Of a DNA stretch of 64,000 bases, positions 6,900 to 15,191 are shown piece by piece. Every line of letters starts with the position of its first letter. Positions within the stretch are counted from its first letter, which is position 1. The position numbers and the translations under genes were made by a program. This stretch comes from Gemmatimonas phototrophica (GTDB taxonomy: Bacteria; Gemmatimonadota; Gemmatimonadetes; Gemmatimonadales; Gemmatimonadaceae): NCBI RefSeq assembly GCF_000695095.2, contig NZ_CP011454.1, positions 248,001 through 312,000 of the forward strand, in the 5' to 3' direction. Under the pieces are notes generated by a model. The model was given only the letters and a program-made list of their open reading frames with translations, did not search any database and was not told where the DNA came from.

Positions 6900-7517
6900 T
6901 TACCGCTGACGGCTGGCCAACACCTCGCGCACATCCTGCAGCGACCCACCGGCCGCCCGCAGCGCCACCAGCGCATGGTACAGCAGATCCGCCGTCTCTT
7001 CCGCAGCGCGCGCAGCGTCCTGATCCACACACGCCGTCGCCAACTCAACCGCCTCTTCACCCAACTTCTTGAGGCGCAAGTTCCGGTCGCTGAGCAGGCG
7101 TTGCGTATAGCTGGGCTTCTCTCCGTCCGTTACCGGAGTCTGCTGGCGCAGCGCAATGGTGGCATCGAGCGCCGAGAACACATCACTGCGCAACGCCTCA
7201 TTGCGGAAACAGGACGTGGTGCCGTTGTGGCACGCCGGGCCCGCGGGAACGACCAGCGCCAACACCGCATCCTGATCACAGTCCGCCGTGAGTGACACCA
7301 TGCGCTGCACATTGCCACTGGTTCCGCCCTTGTGCCACAGCCCGCGACTGCGGGAGTGATAGTGCATTTCTCCGGTGCGCTGCGTGTGTTCCAGCGCTTC
7401 CCGATCGGCGTGCGCCACCATGAGCACGGCACCGCTGTACGCATCCTGCGTCACGACGGTTACCAGGCCATTGCCTTTGGCAAAGTTGAGCGTGTCGAGA
7501 TCGAGTGTCGTACTCAT
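6900..7517 (-). CDS. hisIE: Bifunctional phosphoribosyl-AMP cyclohydrolase / phosphoribosyl-ATP pyrophosphatase
   Basis: 205 residues: an N-terminal HisI domain (about 10-110) with TADCDQDAVL and the metal-binding Cys in PAGPACHNG, joined to a C-terminal HisE domain (about 118-205) with EKPSYTQRLL and GEEAVELATA. It performs the second and third steps of histidine synthesis, hydrolysing PR-ATP to PR-AMP and opening the purine ring. Last gene of the operon; its ATG overlaps the hisN stop by 4 bp. Confidence 0.95.
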   Translation of the reverse strand: MSTTLDLDTLNFAKGNGLVTVVTQDAYSGAVLMVAHADREALEHTQRTGEMHYHSRSRGLWHKGGTSGNVQRMVSLTADCDQDAVLALVVPAGPACHNGTTSCFRNEALRSDVFSALDATIALRQQTPVTDGEKPSYTQRLLSDRNLRLKKLGEEAVELATACVDQDAARAAEETADLLYHALVALRAAGGSLQDVREVLASRQR

Positions 7518-8326
7518 GCAGAGACATCCAGTGAGGGAACGTCGGATTCAAGCAGCCGGCGACGAGTGGCGTTGGCCAACGTGCTGTTGGTGGCGATAAT
7601 GTCGCCTCCGAAGGCCGTGTCGCGGCCCTTCCAGTCACTGAAGCGCCCGCCGGCTTCGGTGATGAGTGGATACATGGCCGCGGCATCCCACGGATTCACG
7701 ATGTCATCCACCATGATCTCCGCCCGCCCTGTCGCGACAAGCAAATAGCCGTAGCAGTCGCCCCACGTGCGACACACTGCCACCTCTGAGGCCAACGACT
7801 GCCAAGGGTCACGGCGATGCGGCCGTTCAAGAAAACGATCGTCGGTCGTCAACAGCGTCGCCTCGCCGAGTGTCGCGACCGTGGAGACCGCCGCGCGTGT
7901 GCCGTTCCACCAGCACCCTTCACCCGCTGCGGCCACCACGAGTTCATTCACCACCGGATAGCAGGCCGCACCGGCCAGCACGGTATCACCTTCGCAGCAG
8001 GCCACGAGTGTTCCCCATAAGGGCACGCCGCGCACAAAGGCCTTGGTGCCGTCAATGGGATCGAGAATCCAGCGCCGGGCGGCCTCGGGGCGCACGGCAT
8101 CAAACTCCTCACCAAACAACCCGTACGCGGGAAAGCGCGTGGCCAGCCACTCCCGCGCCTGACGCTCGGCCTCGCGGTCGGCCACCGTCACGGGCGACCC
8201 ATCGCCCTTGGTTTCCACCGATACATTGGTGTGGTACCACCCCATGGCGACGTTGGCCGCAAAGCGTGCCACCTCGGCGGCCGCCTGCATGAGCATCGCC
8301 GGCGACTCCGTAAGCGACGGGCTCAT
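7514..8326 (-). CDS. hisN: Histidinol-phosphatase, inositol-monophosphatase family
   Basis: 270 residues with all three metal sites of the IMPase superfamily: FGEEF (GEE), WILDPIDGTKAFV (DPxDGT) and, near the C-terminus, NPWDAAAMYPL (WDxAA). The DGTK-AF variant and the location inside the his operon argue for histidinol-phosphate rather than inositol-phosphate as substrate. This supplies the phosphatase missing from the monofunctional HisB in this operon. 4-bp overlaps on both sides. Confidence 0.9.
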   Translation of the reverse strand: MSPSLTESPAMLMQAAAEVARFAANVAMGWYHTNVSVETKGDGSPVTVADREAERQAREWLATRFPAYGLFGEEFDAVRPEAARRWILDPIDGTKAFVRGVPLWGTLVACCEGDTVLAGAACYPVVNELVVAAAGEGCWWNGTRAAVSTVATLGEATLLTTDDRFLERPHRRDPWQSLASEVAVCRTWGDCYGYLLVATGRAEIMVDDIVNPWDAAAMYPLITEAGGRFSDWKGRDTAFGGDIIATNSTLANATRRRLLESDVPSLDVSA

Positions 8327-9108
8327 TCACTCACTCCGGCCACGCCCGCCGTCTCACGGACGAGCAATCCGGCGTCGCGCATGACCTGCTTGAGCGCGTG
8401 CACCGTGGTGAGTCCATCGTGCAGGATACCTGCCACCAGCACCGCGTCGGCGTGCGCCTGCTGGACCGCATCCACGAGGTGCTGCGCATTGCCGGCGCCC
8501 CCCGACGCAATGACCGGCACATGCACCGCCTCGGCCACGGCCCGGGTGATCTCCAGGTCGTAGCCAATGCGGGCGCCGTCACGGTCAATGCTGGTGAGCA
8601 GAATTTCCCCGGCCCCACGCGCCACGCACTCCTGCGCCCAGGCGACGGCCTCCAGTGGCGTTTCCTCGCGCCCTCCCTTCACCCACACCTTATACACGCC
8701 ATCGGCGTTCTTCTTGGCATCAATGCTGGCCACCACGCATTGCGCGCCAAACCGATCGGCCGCCGCCGTGAGCATCTCCGGGTTGGTCACCGCCGCCGAG
8801 TTCACCGAAACCTTGTCGGCACCAGCCCGCAGGGCCCGCGCCACATCGTCGGCGGTGCGGACACCACCGCCAATGGTGAGCGGGATGAACAGCCGTTCGG
8901 CGGTACGACGCGCCACATCCAGCAGCGTGGCGCGCTCTTCGGCGCTGGCGGAAATGTCGAGGAACGTGATTTCGTCGGCGCCCTCCAGTTCGTACCGCTC
9001 GGAGAGCGAGACCGGGTCACCCACATCGCGGAGTCCCACGAAGTTCACGCCTTTGACCACCCGTCCCCCTTTCACGTCCAGGCAGACGATTACACGACGC
9101 GTCAGCAT
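8323..9108 (-). CDS. hisF: Imidazole glycerol phosphate synthase, cyclase subunit
   Basis: 261-residue TIM barrel. RRVIVCLDVKGG puts the catalytic Asp at residue 11, and the second catalytic Asp is in VASIDAKK near residue 130. It takes ammonia from HisH to close the imidazole ring, giving IGP and AICAR. Normal family length. Starts 1 bp after the hisB stop, the only junction of the operon without a 4-bp overlap. Confidence 0.96.
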   Translation of the reverse strand: MLTRRVIVCLDVKGGRVVKGVNFVGLRDVGDPVSLSERYELEGADEITFLDISASAEERATLLDVARRTAERLFIPLTIGGGVRTADDVARALRAGADKVSVNSAAVTNPEMLTAAADRFGAQCVVASIDAKKNADGVYKVWVKGGREETPLEAVAWAQECVARGAGEILLTSIDRDGARIGYDLEITRAVAEAVHVPVIASGGAGNAQHLVDAVQQAHADAVLVAGILHDGLTTVHALKQVMRDAGLLVRETAGVAGVSE

Positions 9109-9109
9109 C

Positions 9110-9658
9110 TCACGCCGTCCCGGTGATCTCGAGCTTCACGGACCCCTTGGTGCTGAACACCGCCCCACTTTCCACCAACGCCTCGCGCAGCGCGAAGCCC
9201 AGGGCCTTGAACGCGGCCTCAATGATGTGGTGCTTGTCGGTGCCGCGCAGGACGCGCAGATGCAGCGTAGCCTTGGCGTTGTCGGCAAAGGAGCGCATGA
9301 AGTGATCGTAGATGCCGCTGGGCAACGGGCCGCGGTAGTAGGGGCGCCCGCCCAGATCAAGCACCACCTGCACGAGCGCATCATCCATGGGCACCGTACG
9401 CTCGCCGTAGCGCGCGCAGGTGGCCGGTGCATGCGCCGCCATCGCTGCGCCCAGCGCAATGGCCACGTCCTCAATGAGATGGTGGCGCAGGTCACCCTTG
9501 GCCTGCACATCAAAAGTCACCCCCGAGTACTTCGAGAGCGCCACGAGCATGTGATCGAGAAACGGCTCGGTGGTGTTGATGGAGGGCAGTCCCGGCGTGG
9601 GCTCGTTGAGCGCAATGCGGATCTGCGTTTCGTTGGATTCCCGGACGACGACGGTCAT
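9110..9658 (-). CDS. hisB: Imidazoleglycerol-phosphate dehydratase
   Basis: 182 residues, the monofunctional IGPD length, so there is no fused phosphatase. The paired manganese-binding histidine motifs are present: DHMLVAL and LRHHLIEDVAIALG in the first repeat, and IYDHFMRSF and DKHHIIEAAFKALG in the second. Converts IGP to imidazole acetol phosphate. 4-bp overlap with hisA upstream. Confidence 0.96.
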   Translation of the reverse strand: MTVVVRESNETQIRIALNEPTPGLPSINTTEPFLDHMLVALSKYSGVTFDVQAKGDLRHHLIEDVAIALGAAMAAHAPATCARYGERTVPMDDALVQVVLDLGGRPYYRGPLPSGIYDHFMRSFADNAKATLHLRVLRGTDKHHIIEAAFKALGFALREALVESGAVFSTKGSVKLEITGTA

Positions 9659-10368
9659 GCGCCAAACTCCTCGGCAAGACGGCGCGGATCAATCGCGCCC
9701 GTGTACAAAGCCATGCCCAACACCGCACCGGCCAGGCCGCGATGTTCGAGCGCTCGCATATCTTCGAGACTGGTCACTCCACCCGAGGCAAAGACAGGCC
9801 AGGCACTCGCCTCGGCCACGTCTTCCATGAGCGGCAAATCGGTGCCCTGCATCTTGCCTTCAAGGTGAACTGCCGTGACCAGCACACCGGCCAGCGGAAG
9901 CACGGAGAGCTCCTCCACGAAGTCCACCACATTCAGGCGCGATGTTTCCGCCCATCCCTTGGTGACCACGTAGCGCTCCCGTACATCGGCCGCAATGATG
10001 AGGCGACCGGGAAAGCGATTGGCCATCTCCTCGCGCCAGTCCTCGTCTTCCACCGCACGGGTGCCAACGACAACCCACGAGGCGCCTTCATCGAGCAGCC
10101 GCTCAATGCACGATTCGTCGCGTACACCACCCCCCACCTGCACGGGCACGTCGGCGGTGCGGAGAATCTCGCGGATGATCTCCATGTTGTGCCCGCGTCC
10201 TGTGGCGGCATCAAGGTCTACCACATGGAGTCGGGTGAATCCTTCGCGGACCCACTCGCGCGCCACCGATGGCGGATCTTCCAACCGGATCTTCTCGGCG
10301 TCGTAGTCTCCTCCCACCAGCTGCACACACTTGCCGCCGCGCAGATCCACGGCCGGAATGGCGATCAT
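9655..10368 (-). CDS. hisA: Phosphoribosylformimino-5-aminoimidazole carboxamide ribotide isomerase
   Basis: 237-residue TIM barrel related to HisF. IPAVDLRGG sets the catalytic Asp at residue 8, and a second catalytic Asp lies in AADVRE near residue 127. It catalyses the Amadori rearrangement of ProFAR to PRFAR. Starts inside the hisH stop (4-bp overlap). Confidence 0.95.
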   Translation of the reverse strand: MIAIPAVDLRGGKCVQLVGGDYDAEKIRLEDPPSVAREWVREGFTRLHVVDLDAATGRGHNMEIIREILRTADVPVQVGGGVRDESCIERLLDEGASWVVVGTRAVEDEDWREEMANRFPGRLIIAADVRERYVVTKGWAETSRLNVVDFVEELSVLPLAGVLVTAVHLEGKMQGTDLPLMEDVAEASAWPVFASGGVTSLEDMRALEHRGLAGAVLGMALYTGAIDPRRLAEEFGA

Positions 10369-11036
10369 ACAGAGCTCCGGTTGTGCGTCGCCACGGACGA
10401 CGCGAAATCAAGAAAGCCTTTCACGAACGCCACACCAGGCGCGCTGGATTTTTCAGGGTGGAACTGCGTGCCCACCACGTTCCCACGACGTACGGCGGCG
10501 GCGAACCGGTCGCCTTCATGCTCACTCCACGCCGTGACAAACGGCGCCCCGTCGCTGGTCGGGCGACAGACGAAGGAATTGGCATAGTACGCCACATTCA
10601 GCGCGGCTGCTTGCAGCAGCGGATCGTGTACCTCGTCGAGGTGGTTCCAACCAATCTGCGGCACCCGTTCGGCGGCCAGCCGCGTCACGCGCCCGGGGAC
10701 AATCCCCAGCCCGCTCCCCGGCCCTTCGTCGCTGGCGTCGAACAGCAGCTGCATGCCCAGGCAAATGCCCAGGGCGGGTAGTCCGCCCAGCAACGCTGTG
10801 CGCATGGCGATCAGTCCGGGGGCCAGTCGTTCGGCCGCCGGCGCGAAGGCGCCCACCCCGGGCAAAATGAGGGCATCGGTGTTGGCCACGGCAGCCACCG
10901 GGTCGACGTTCACCGTGACCGAGGCTCCACCAGCCTCAATGGCCTTGATGAGCGAATGCAGGTTCCCGGCCCCGTAGTCGAAGATCGACACCCGGAGCGG
11001 GAGCGCCGATGCCACACTGTTCATGACTTCACTCAT
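10365..11036 (-). CDS. hisH: Imidazole glycerol phosphate synthase, glutamine amidotransferase subunit
   Basis: 223 residues. The class I amidotransferase nucleophile is in GICLGMQLLF and the His/Glu pair in QFHPEKS. Supplies ammonia to HisF. The reading frame extends upstream into hisC, but the ATG at 11036, overlapping the hisC stop by 4 bp, follows the rule of this operon and puts the conserved FDYGAGNL close to the N-terminus. Confidence 0.94.
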   Translation of the reverse strand: MSEVMNSVASALPLRVSIFDYGAGNLHSLIKAIEAGGASVTVNVDPVAAVANTDALILPGVGAFAPAAERLAPGLIAMRTALLGGLPALGICLGMQLLFDASDEGPGSGLGIVPGRVTRLAAERVPQIGWNHLDEVHDPLLQAAALNVAYYANSFVCRPTSDGAPFVTAWSEHEGDRFAAAVRRGNVVGTQFHPEKSSAPGVAFVKGFLDFASSVATHNRSSV

Positions 11037-12106
11037 GCCGCGGTACCTCCGTTCACGTCCATGGTGGCAGCATCGAATGCTTCCAGAAACCGTTCCACCA
11101 TCTCCCACGGGCCCACGCTGATGCGCAGCGTATCACCCACGTGCGGCAGTGCGGCAAACGGGCGCGCCGCCACACCACGGGCCCGCAGTGCCTGACCCAC
11201 CTCAAGGGCGTTGGCCACCGGCACGCACACGTAGTTGGCGTGCGACTCGAGCGGGGTATAGCCACGCGTACGCAACGCCGCCGCGAGGCGGTTGCGGTTC
11301 TCCACCGCCAGCGCCACGTGGGCATGCACCCAGTCCATGTCGTGGCGCAACGCCGCCAGCCCCATCTGTTCCGCCACGCTGCTCAGCTTGTAGGGACCAC
11401 GAGACTTTTCCACGTCACGCACCAGCGATGGCGCACCAATGCCGTAGCCAATGCGCAGACCGGCCAGCCCGAAAGCTTTGGACATGGTGCGAATGACGAG
11501 CAGGTTGTCCACGCGCATGGCGAGGTCGACCGCCGACACGCCGCTGAACTCGGCGTAGGCTTCGTCCACGAACACCACGCCCGGCGCTTCGCGCACCGCA
11601 CGTTCAAGGGTTTCGCGCGTGAGCAGGGCACCGGTGGGATTGTTGGGCGAGCACAGATACAGAATGCGCGGTTTGGCCGCGAGCAGCGCATCGAGATCCG
11701 GCTGGTGATCGGCGCGTTCCGTAATGCCCACGTACTGCAGCCCATTCATCTGTGCAAAAATGGGAATCATGGCAAAGCTGGGCTCACTGCCAGCCACTAC
11801 CGACCCCGGCTCGCCAAACGCACGCATGGCGCTGTCGAGAATGTCATCAGAGCCACAGCCGGTGACCAGACGATCCGCGGTGGCGCCCACAAACGCGGCC
11901 AGCGCCTCCTTGAGCTCCGCGGCATACAGCGACGGATAGCGTGTAACCTTGGCCACTGCCATCTCGCGCAGCGTGCGTTCGGCGGTGGGGGGCAGCCCCC
12001 ACAGATTGGTGTTGTCTGTGAGATCGAGATCAACCGGCGTACGCTTGGGGTCGTACAGCGGCACCGCATCATAGAGCGCGCGGGCGAAGGCTAAACGGTC
12101 GCTCAT
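11033..12106 (-). CDS. hisC: Histidinol-phosphate aminotransferase
   Basis: 357-residue PLP fold-type I enzyme. The PLP lysine is in TMSKAFGLAGLRIG, and YLCSPNNPTG, GVVFVDEAYAEF and a C-terminal LRISVG are typical. Transfers the amino group from glutamate to imidazole acetol phosphate. Start chosen at 12106 because it overlaps the hisD stop by 4 bp and gives the normal N-terminus MSDRLAFARAL; the open frame upstream lies inside hisD. Confidence 0.95.
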   Translation of the reverse strand: MSDRLAFARALYDAVPLYDPKRTPVDLDLTDNTNLWGLPPTAERTLREMAVAKVTRYPSLYAAELKEALAAFVGATADRLVTGCGSDDILDSAMRAFGEPGSVVAGSEPSFAMIPIFAQMNGLQYVGITERADHQPDLDALLAAKPRILYLCSPNNPTGALLTRETLERAVREAPGVVFVDEAYAEFSGVSAVDLAMRVDNLLVIRTMSKAFGLAGLRIGYGIGAPSLVRDVEKSRGPYKLSSVAEQMGLAALRHDMDWVHAHVALAVENRNRLAAALRTRGYTPLESHANYVCVPVANALEVGQALRARGVAARPFAALPHVGDTLRISVGPWEMVERFLEAFDAATMDVNGGTAA

Positions 12107-13434
12107 GTGGTACCTCCCTGTCCCCAGGCTCGGGCCGCCGCTGCGTGCCCGGGCAACCCTTCGGCGTCGGCAAAGCGACCCACGTCGTCGGCCAACGCCG
12201 CCGCGGCGCTGGGGGTGACTTCCTGCCACGTAGTCCAGCGCACGAAGTCGAGCGTGCTGAGCCCCGAGTAGCTGCGACCGGCGCCGGCGGTGGGCAACAC
12301 GTGATTGGCCCCGGTCATGTAATCGCCGTAGGCTACACTGCTGGAGGCGCCCACGAAAATGGTGCCGGCGCTGCGCAACGCGGCCAAGGTGCGGTCGCGC
12401 ACATCATCGCTCACCACCAGCAGCAGATGTTCGGCGGCCCACGCATTGGTGAACTCAATCGCGTCGTTGAGCTCGGGCACCGTCACAATGGCGCCTCGCG
12501 CCGCCAACGACGCTCGCACCACCTCCGCGCGTGGTGCCGTGGCAAGTTGTGCGTCCAGCGCGTCCACGATCTCGGTGGTGAGCCGATCCACCTTGGGGCC
12601 GGTGAGCACCGCGATGACGGCCGCATCGGGGTCGTGCTCCGCCTGGGCCATCATTTCGCGCGCAATGGCATTGGCGTTGGCCGTTTGATCGGCCAATACC
12701 AGCAGCTCACTGGGGCCGGCCGGCGAATCGATGGCCACACGGTTGACCAGTTGCAGCTTGGCTTCGGCCACATAGGCGTTGCCAGGGCCCATGATGCGAT
12801 CGACTTGTGGCACGCTCTGTGTGCCTAGCGCGAGGGCAGCAATGGCGCCCGCGCCACCCAGGGAAAACACCCGGTCCACATTGGCCAGCGCGGCGGCGGC
12901 CAGCACTACGGCCGACGGCTTGCCATCAGCGCCCGGTGGGGAACAGACAATGACTTCTTGTACTCCTGCCACCCGCGCCGGAATGGCGCCCATGAGCAGC
13001 GAACTCGGGTAGGCGGCGCGTCCACCGGGGGCATAGATCCCCACACGCTGCAGCGCATCGGGGCGCCGCCCCACCGTAATGCCAGGTTCGGGCGAGCACA
13101 CCGTTTCAACCGGCAGAAACGCTGTGTGCACCGACGCAATGTTGCGCGCCGCGCGCTCCAGCGATTGCCGGAGATCAGGATTGAGCGACGCCAGCGCCGC
13201 GTCCCAGTCGGCGCGCGGTACTTCGAGTGCCGTGAGCGTCACGCGGTCTAAGTCGCGCGCGAACTCGAGCAGCGCCGCATCACCGCGCGTGCGCACCTGC
13301 TCAATGATGGCGGCCGTGCGCGCCCGCACCGTGGTATCGGTGGTGGACGATCGATCAACAATGGCGCGTCGCGTCTCGGTGTCGAGCCGCGACAACGGAC
13401 CACACGCACGCAGCTGGACCGACGTCGTGCTCAC
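12103..13434 (-). CDS. hisD: Histidinol dehydrogenase
   Basis: 443 residues, normal length. Signature stretches include VGIYAPGGRAAYPSS, VIVCSPPGADG, MGPGNAYVAEAKLQL, and near the C-terminus GDYMTGANHVLPT with the zinc/substrate histidine. Zinc- and NAD-dependent, it oxidises histidinol to histidine in two steps. Second gene of the operon, overlapping hisG and hisC by 4 bp each. Confidence 0.96.
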   Translation of the reverse strand: MSTTSVQLRACGPLSRLDTETRRAIVDRSSTTDTTVRARTAAIIEQVRTRGDAALLEFARDLDRVTLTALEVPRADWDAALASLNPDLRQSLERAARNIASVHTAFLPVETVCSPEPGITVGRRPDALQRVGIYAPGGRAAYPSSLLMGAIPARVAGVQEVIVCSPPGADGKPSAVVLAAAALANVDRVFSLGGAGAIAALALGTQSVPQVDRIMGPGNAYVAEAKLQLVNRVAIDSPAGPSELLVLADQTANANAIAREMMAQAEHDPDAAVIAVLTGPKVDRLTTEIVDALDAQLATAPRAEVVRASLAARGAIVTVPELNDAIEFTNAWAAEHLLLVVSDDVRDRTLAALRSAGTIFVGASSSVAYGDYMTGANHVLPTAGAGRSYSGLSTLDFVRWTTWQEVTPSAAAALADDVGRFADAEGLPGHAAAARAWGQGGTT

Positions 13435-14309
13435 GGCACCAGCCTCTCGATGCGCGTGACAAGAATGCCTTCACCGCCCAGCGCGCGCAGTTGCGAAATG
13501 GTGCGATAAATCGTGCTGGCGCTCACCACGGCGTGCACCGCCACAAACTGAGAGGACTCGGCGATCTCGATGACCGTGGGGCCGTTCAGTCCGGGCAACA
13601 CCGTGCGCACCTGATCGAGCGAGGTGCGCGGTACGTTGGCCATGAGATAGCGCTGGCCGCGGGCCCGGATGACCGACGCGAGGGCGGTCACGAGATCGTC
13701 GAGTTCCTGCTTGCGTTCGGGATCGCCCTGGCGTGGGCCTCCCTTGGCGGTAATGAGGTGGGCGCTGGAGCGCAGCACGATATCCACTTCCCGCAGTCCA
13801 TTCACGCGCAGCGTGGAGCCTGTGGAGGTGAGATCCACCACGATATCGGCAATGCCCAGGTGGGGGGCAATTTCGGCGGCGCCGGAGACCGGCACGACAT
13901 CCACCGGGCAGCCGCGCTCTTCGAAGAAGCGGCGCGTGATGTTGGGAAATACCGTGGCCACGCGCATGCGGGTGCCGGTGCGGCCAATGTCCTCAATGGA
14001 GCGAATGCCTGATTCCTCGCGGGCGGCCACCACCAGGCGGCACTTGCCGAAGCCGAGGTCGAGATGGGAGGACAGGTCCCGCCCCGACTCGTTGACGAGG
14101 TCCCAGCCGGTCACGCCGACGTCGGCGGCGCCGTCGGCGACGAACTCCGGAATGTCCTGGGCGCGCACGAAGATGGCCTCGAACTCCCCGCCCAGTGAGG
14201 CGGTGAGGGCGCGTTCACCGGACGAGCGGACTTCGAGCCCGGCGTCGTTGAACAGCTCGCGGGTGTCTTCGCTCAGGCGACCCTTGTTGGGGAGGGCGAT
14301 TCTCAGCAT
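13431..14309 (-). CDS. hisG: ATP phosphoribosyltransferase, long form
   Basis: 292 residues from the ATG at 14309 (MLRIALPNKGRL), the canonical N-terminus. The catalytic domain contains GVTGWDLV and VDLTSTGSTLRVNGL; the last 75 or so residues form the C-terminal HisG regulatory domain, ending in ILVTRIERLVP. This is the long, self-regulated form that binds histidine, so no HisZ partner is needed, and none is present. First structural gene of the operon, 60 bp downstream of the attenuator terminator, preceded by AAGAAGG. Confidence 0.96.
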   Translation of the reverse strand: MLRIALPNKGRLSEDTRELFNDAGLEVRSSGERALTASLGGEFEAIFVRAQDIPEFVADGAADVGVTGWDLVNESGRDLSSHLDLGFGKCRLVVAAREESGIRSIEDIGRTGTRMRVATVFPNITRRFFEERGCPVDVVPVSGAAEIAPHLGIADIVVDLTSTGSTLRVNGLREVDIVLRSSAHLITAKGGPRQGDPERKQELDDLVTALASVIRARGQRYLMANVPRTSLDQVRTVLPGLNGPTVIEIAESSQFVAVHAVVSASTIYRTISQLRALGGEGILVTRIERLVP

Positions 14310-14368
14310 CCAGGCCTTCTTGTAAGTGGAAACGAACGAATTGAGGGGCAACGTGGAGCGCGGGCAAC

Positions 14369-14397
14369 AAAAAAGGCCCGTCCGGAGAGGACGGGCC
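14369..14397 (-). terminator. Intrinsic terminator in the his leader (attenuator)
   Basis: On the minus strand GGCCCGTCC (14397-14389), loop TCTCC, GGACGGGCC (14383-14375) and then six T (14374-14369): a 9-bp all-perfect stem plus U-tract, located between the leader peptide stop and hisG. Its 5' arm can alternatively pair with GACGGGTC inside the leader-peptide coding region (14465-14458; eight pairs, one G-T), giving a mutually exclusive antiterminator. This is the arrangement of a ribosome-mediated attenuator. Confidence 0.85.
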
Positions 14398-14431
14398 GCA
14401 GGAAGCTTTGGCGCGGGGTGTTACAGCAGAG

Positions 14432-14515
14432 CTACCCCACCACGCAACAAGCGCCCCGACCCGTCGGGCCGTGACCGTGATGCGTATGATGGTGGGTGGG
14501 GCGGCAGCAAGGCAT
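14432..14515 (-). CDS. hisL: his operon leader peptide (HisL-type), 27 residues
   Basis: A small ORF opening ATG CCT TGC at 14515 and closing TAG at 14432. Residues 8-15 are HHHTHHGH, six His codons in eight, immediately upstream of the antiterminator segment and the terminator. The only in-frame start after an upstream in-frame TAG (14530) is this ATG. No Shine-Dalgarno is visible, and the predicted start of transcription lies at or a few bases before the ATG, so translation may be leaderless. Under histidine shortage the ribosome would stall on the His run and let RNA polymerase continue into hisG. Confidence 0.8.
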   Translation of the reverse strand: MPCCRPTHHHTHHGHGPTGRGACCVVG

Positions 14516-14524
14516 AGGACAGGG

Positions 14525-14553
14525 AGGCTAGCGGGGCGAAGTGGGGCCGTCAA
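14525..14553 (-). promoter_or_regulatory. his operon sigma70-type promoter
   Basis: Minus strand TTGACG (14553-14548), 17-bp spacer, TAGCCT (14530-14525). The -35 matches five of six and the -10 three of six consensus bases with ideal spacing. The predicted start (about 14520-14515) is at or just before the leader-peptide ATG. Confidence 0.55.
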
Positions 14554-14592: not shown

Positions 14593-14610
14593 TTGTGAAT
14601 AGTTTCACAA
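14593..14610. promoter_or_regulatory. Perfect Rex-type operator
   Basis: TTGTGAATAGTTTCACAA is TTGTGAA-N4-TTCACAA, an exact match to the consensus of the NADH-sensing repressor Rex. It lies 81 bp upstream of the cupredoxin start and about 40 bp upstream of the his -35, in the divergent region 14516-14690. It is itself bracketed by an exact inverted pair CCGAGCTCG (14583-14591) / CGAGCTCGG (14627-14635) and followed by the palindrome GCAGGGCCCTGC (14616-14627). Control of the cupredoxin gene is inferred; no rex gene is in the window. Confidence 0.65.
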
Positions 14611-14690
14611 GGCTTGCAGGGCCCTGCGAGCTCGGGACCAAGCGTTCCGGTTGAAAGGAATTTTCCGAATAGGCTCTGGAGGCCTACAAC

Positions 14691-15191
14691 ATGCGGTTTC
14701 TCGGTTTTGCAGTAGTCGCCGGCGCGGCGATCCTCATGGGCGCGTGCGGCGGTGGTGACACGGCGGCGACGGATTCGGCAGCGGCGCCGGCGATGGACAC
14801 GGCGGCTGCGGCCCCGGCGGCGGCTCCGGCTGCTGGTGCGATGGCCCCGATCACGGGCACCACGCACACGGTCAACATGGTGGGTGACGGTCAGGGCTAC
14901 CGCTTTGAGCCGGCTGAAATCACGATTGCGGCCGGCGACGGCATCAAGTTCGTGATGGTCTCGGGCGGCCCGCACAACGTGGCGTTCGATCCCGCCACGC
15001 TGGCCCCGGAAGCCAAGACGGCCCTCATGGCCAACATGCCGGAGCAGGCTGGTGAGCTCTCGGGCAAGATGATGCTGAACGCGAACGAAGAGTACACGAT
15101 CTCGTTCGCTGGCGTTCCGGCTGGCACGTACGATTACCACTGCACGCCGCACCTTGCCATGAACATGAAGGGCAAGATCACCATCAAGTAA
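14691..15191 (+). CDS. Plastocyanin/azurin-like cupredoxin lipoprotein
   Basis: 166 residues. Lipoprotein signal LMGAC (Cys19), then an Ala/Pro-rich linker to about residue 60, then a cupredoxin domain. Type 1 copper ligands are visible: His in GGPHNVAF, Cys and His in YHCTPHLAM, and Met at its end. Probably a periplasm-facing, membrane-tethered electron carrier. GGAGG precedes the ATG by 8 bp. A perfect Rex-type operator upstream suggests control by the NADH/NAD+ ratio, fitting a respiratory electron carrier. Confidence 0.88.
   Translation: MRFLGFAVVAGAAILMGACGGGDTAATDSAAAPAMDTAAAAPAAAPAAGAMAPITGTTHTVNMVGDGQGYRFEPAEITIAAGDGIKFVMVSGGPHNVAFDPATLAPEAKTALMANMPEQAGELSGKMMLNANEEYTISFAGVPAGTYDYHCTPHLAMNMKGKITIK

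Follow-up and report, generated by a model that had tools for sequence, protein, structure and literature searches.

The closest described counterpart of the element reported here is the leader of the enterobacterial his operon (RF00514), in which a short open reading frame (ORF) with a run of His codons, an alternative pairing, and an intrinsic terminator are followed by hisG. His leader peptides have been described in gammaproteobacteria and in 3 lineages of Firmicutes (PMC9413887), and the 2010 study that added the hisS/hisZ leaders of bacilli stated that leader peptides had until then been known only in Proteobacteria and Actinobacteria (PMC2965389). Attenuators on leaderless transcripts include the rhizobial trpL of Sinorhizobium (PMC7298713) and, as cited in PMC10272879, the ilvBNC leader of Corynebacterium (Morbach 2000).

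We analyzed a stretch of 64,000 nucleotides from Gemmatimonas phototrophica, here called the window, which contains a his operon on the minus strand (7514..14309, with the ATG of hisG at 14309). The gene order is hisG, hisD, hisC, hisH, hisA, hisB, hisF, and a gene for a HisN-type histidinol-phosphatase (hisGDCHABF plus hisN), each with an NCBIfam match. The genome consists of one contig of 4.72 Mb and contains a single HisG gene. Upstream of hisG are the same elements as in RF00514, but the His codons are interrupted (HHHxHHxH), there would be no room for a Shine-Dalgarno sequence before the leader ORF, only 1 competing helix is clearly conserved rather than the full enterobacterial multi-stem set, and the phyla are different. 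The sequence-only reading had equated the order of promoter, leader, antiterminator, terminator, and hisG with that of enterobacterial his attenuation, which holds for the layout but does not extend to the covariance model or to the number of competing helices. The Rfam his_leader search that it had proposed gave no match near hisG even at E = 10, and there was none at the gathering score in the window and 10 related loci. With the Firmicutes leaders the locus shares predicted leader-peptide attenuation and runs of His codons, but the lineages and in part the genes are different. With trpL and, as far as the cited source goes, ilvBNC, it would share an attenuator ORF located at the 5′ end of the transcript or lacking a ribosome binding site, but the amino acid and the phyla differ, and the transcript was studied by experiment in those systems, whereas the start is here inferred from the promoter.

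A σ70-type promoter, TTGACG-17-TAGCCT, was identified on the minus strand (TTGACG at 14553-14548, a spacer of 17 nucleotides, TAGCCT at 14530-14525), followed by the leader-peptide ORF MPCCRPTHHHTHHGHGPTGRGACCVVG of 27 codons (14432..14515, minus strand), which starts with ATG at 14515 and ends with TAG at 14432. The ORF contains the codon run CAC CAT CAT ACG CAT CAC GGT CAC (HHHTHHGH, 14471..14494, minus strand), that is, 6 His codons in 8. Such 6-of-8 runs were absent from all frames of 20 shuffled versions of the window, but one further run of this kind was found elsewhere in the 64-kb window, and the His run by itself is therefore suggestive but no proof. Taken alone, the second run would be in line with a His-rich frame and an ordinary intergenic terminator having met by chance, with no regulatory role.

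That reading was put to the comparison with relatives. A search with HisG as the query gave 80 loci, 77 of which had usable upstream sequence, resulting in a total of 78 comparable loci with the window included. The sequence-only reading had staked its case on a His-rich ORF upstream of hisG in relatives, and such a short ORF was present in 78 of 78 loci, which span the 3 phyla Gemmatimonadota, Myxococcota (Myxococcus, Corallococcus, Pyxidicoccus, Archangium, and Hyalangium), and Candidatus Eisenbacteria. It had also asked for conserved His runs and covarying stems, and the ORF, the promoter, the terminator, and the competing pairing were retained in essentially all relatives; most of them have TTGAC-17/18-TAnnnT at the position equivalent to the promoter in the window. 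The His codons in the runs are CAC (185) and CAT (250), which interchange between loci, and the insertions found close to the run have lengths in multiples of 3, as fits translated codons. Since every comparable relative keeps the leader, and every part is conserved at fixed spacing across the 3 phyla, the comparison refutes the chance reading, to which we assign next to no probability. The attenuator observation is real and far past chance; the DNA sequence itself shows which parts are present, how they are ordered and conserved, and where they are complementary. One of the loci, L047 (BNCN01000004.1), is recorded as Comamonas sp. KCTC 72670 and contains a HisG gene and an attenuator of the Myxococcus type; the name in this record looks wrong.

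The position of the promoter relative to the ORF had escaped the sequence-only reading. In 70 of 77 loci, an in-frame ATG or GTG was preceded by TTGAC at a distance of 31 to 45 nucleotides, compared with 0.5 loci expected from shuffles, and the distance from TTGAC to the start codon was 35 to 40 nucleotides in 67 of these 70 promoter-bearing loci. Where a −10 hexamer was recognized, the start codon followed it by 2 to 11 nucleotides. The start codon thus coincides with the expected start of transcription or follows it by a few bases, which leaves no room for a Shine-Dalgarno sequence. With its ORF beginning so close to this predicted start, the his leader mRNA is probably leaderless, as judged from the promoter position.

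Between the leader ORF and hisG is an intrinsic terminator (minus strand) with a GC-rich hairpin of 9 pairs, GGCCCGTCC-TCTCC-GGACGGGCC (14375..14397, loop TCTCC), and a tail of 6 T residues (14369..14374). A hairpin of the form GCCCGTCC...GGACGGGC with a T tail was found in nearly all loci, and among 37 diverse loci 99.4% of the cells in the terminator pairing were paired, with compensatory changes present. Just after the His codons, the leader segment ACGGG(T/C)CG, which codes for T-G-R, is complementary to the 5′ arm of the terminator in almost all loci. In the window, this antiterminator segment is GACGGGTCG (14457..14465, minus strand), encoding P-T-G-R, and its partner is CGGCCCGTC (14390..14398, minus strand), which is common to the antiterminator and the 5′ arm of the terminator. 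The terminator with 9 pairs and T6 had thus been read correctly, and so had the presence of a conserved competing pairing, but the word "exact" slightly overstated it, as 1 of the 9 pairs between GACGGGTCG (14465-14457) and CGGCCCGTC (14398-14390) is G-U.

The antiterminator helix was paired in 82% of the cells, compared with 35% to 52% in slid controls. Its covariation score was reached by 1 of 500 shuffles, although the loci are related, so that the shuffles overstate independence and the count cannot be read as a probability. In L065 and L080, the second position of the arm carries A in place of G, and pairing with both alternative partners is retained. Where the terminator was clear, the predicted duplex energies ranged from −16 to −32 kcal/mol. 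When the leader was recoded with synonymous codons so that the peptide was kept, the antiterminator pairing was at least as strong as in the median recoding in 74 of 75 loci (mean z −1.3), a conservative comparison, as the choice of amino acids may itself result from the pairing. The 3′ end of the leader (14432..14450, minus strand) can fold back and pair with the His codons, with moderate support as a possible lock for the off state; this pairing was at or beyond the median recoding in 63 of 74 loci (mean z −1.1). A local protector hairpin, CCCGA-CGGG-TCGGG, was rejected since it was not conserved across the set. RNAalifold recovered little except the terminator from the whole alignment, because the spacer aligns poorly.

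The locus thus has a short ORF whose codon run specifies the amino acid made by the operon itself, an intrinsic terminator between this ORF and the first gene, and a competing antiterminator that uses the 5′ arm of the terminator, and very probably attenuates transcription of the his operon by a ribosome-mediated mechanism. From this arrangement we infer that initiation is leaderless, that the ribosome stalls, that the polymerase reads through, and in which direction the operon responds. Transcription would begin at the ATG of the leader or just a few bases ahead of it, and a ribosome would load onto the leaderless end of the mRNA. If charged tRNA-His is scarce, the ribosome would stall in the His run and leave GACGGGTCG free to pair with the 5′ arm of the terminator before the 3′ arm has been made, so that the polymerase would read into hisG. 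If histidine is plentiful, the ribosome would reach the stop codon and disrupt the antiterminator pairing, the terminator would form, and transcription would stop; the off state would also gain from the pairing between the 3′ end of the leader and the His codons.

When transcripts masked by a ribosome were folded at equilibrium, these states were not cleanly distinguished, and the finished terminator was the best structure in almost all of them. When the terminator was left unfinished, the predicted occupancy of its 5′ arm in the window was 0.88 with the ribosome on the first 5 His codons, 0.55 with the ribosome on the sixth, 0.49 with the ribosome at the stop codon, and 0.83 without a ribosome. 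Because equilibrium folding fails to reproduce the switch, it must rest on the timing of transcription. The same failure would suit an upstream ORF that senses His and affects translation, Rho access, or mRNA stability, with the hairpin serving as a constitutive leaky terminator or forming the 3′ terminus of a small RNA (sRNA), and the best sub-threshold Rfam matches were indeed sRNAs that carry terminators. Such an ORF would, however, give no role to the conserved complementarity between the leader and the terminator arm, and hisG has a free Shine-Dalgarno sequence, AGAAGG (14315..14320, minus strand), downstream of the terminator; we therefore consider this explanation very unlikely.

Slightly less improbable, but still unlikely, is that the operon is controlled mainly by a DNA-binding regulator and that the leader is secondary. 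The palindrome TTGTGAAACTATTCACAA (14593-14610), of the CRP/FNR-like form TGTGA-N6-TCACA, lies in the region that separates the his promoter from a divergent gene for a plastocyanin/azurin-type cupredoxin (14691-15191, plus strand). It has only 4 sites in the genome at no more than 1 mismatch and is conserved upstream of the promoter in many Gemmatimonas loci, but its location between divergent genes means that it may serve the cupredoxin gene, and several loci with the attenuator (L015, L017, and L052) had no recognizable copy of it. A second conserved palindrome, GCAGGGCCCTGC (14615-14626), adjoins TTGTGAAACTATTCACAA in many Gemmatimonas loci.

To return to the attenuator, a covariance model built from the his leaders was run on the genomes of 3 groups and gave matches in 108 of 298 Gemmatimonadota genomes, in 72 of 195 genomes from the phylum of Corallococcus, and in 7 of 47 genomes from the Eisenbacteria group, a few of the weak matches not being his leaders. 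Of 25 examined Gemmatimonadota genomes with no match among the matches listed, 17 had no HisG gene, which suggests that histidine synthesis was lost. The remaining 8 contained HisG; 4 had a His-rich leader that the model had missed, 1 was doubtful, 1 was cut by the end of the contig, and 2 had no leader upstream of hisG (L227 and L230). The genomes that lack a HisG gene include G004, G016, G028, and G046, and most of the 17 are nearly complete. A tree of HisG gave no resolution at depth on transfer of the operon between phyla, including into Myxococcota. No open paper on attenuation leader peptides was found that deals with Gemmatimonas, Gemmatimonadetes, or the his genes of Myxococcus, while the wide survey by Lopatovskaya et al. 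2010, as cited in PMC10272879, possibly contains an earlier mention. The his attenuator has probably remained uncatalogued so far in Gemmatimonadota, Myxococcota, and Eisenbacteria.

The weak extra matches of the his model were Tyr-rich leaders with the same ACGGG(T/C)CG core and terminator, a recurrence that the sequence-only reading had also missed. They include MSIRRRYYAYSYAYAPRPTGRDRWRMRG before a gene for an aromatic amino acid hydroxylase and MQMSRSYYASYYYATRTGRGPRRTLD before a gene for DAHP synthase, and a further search identified Tyr leaders with terminators at 4 of 30 hydroxylase loci. In L112, a His-rich leader precedes a hisC-like gene. The genome of the window contains an aromatic leader, MTRHFFACRFYYVPTRMGSGMIGMRS, before a DAHP synthase gene (L207, G000:C1:4545000-4547200), with the hairpin GAGGCCCGT...ACGGGCCTC and TTGACA-17-TAGCCT just upstream. 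In L209 and L212 of Myxococcota, a GTG-started, Thr-rich short ORF, VSFVITTTTTGTTTRFGGRG, with a less similar core precedes a threonyl-tRNA synthetase-like gene, as named by eye. No Tyr leader was found at the phenylalanine hydroxylase gene in the genome of the window, from which LeuA_dimer was absent, and no leader for Trp attenuation was found before trpE in the genus. The loci of other Gemmatimonadota in which Tyr-rich leaders with terminators precede phenylalanine-4-hydroxylase-like genes are L113, L115, L118, L267, L273, and L275.

We tentatively suggest, at somewhat less than even confidence, that these leaders represent a modular attenuator in Gemmatimonadota and their relatives, in which different codon runs are fitted into one core (ACGGG(T/C)CG, translated as TGR, against the terminator sequence CGGCCCGT) carried by leaderless mRNAs. 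The putative set so far comprises His runs before hisG and hisC, Tyr runs before the genes for phenylalanine-4-hydroxylase and DAHP synthase, and a Thr-rich candidate before the threonyl-tRNA synthetase-like gene; since the his model was the means by which most of these additional leaders came to light, their common core partly reflects the way in which they were detected.

The mechanism of attenuation is textbook, and what is new is the lineage, the predicted leaderless layout, and the proposed exchange of codon runs. Leader-peptide attenuation of his genes is extended to phyla for which we found no description in the literature and which no Rfam model matches. The layout suggests attenuation on leaderless mRNAs, where the loading of the ribosome would coincide with the start of transcription. 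Should the exchange of codon runs around a common core prove real, these leaders would provide a natural series for studying how amino acid specificity changes.
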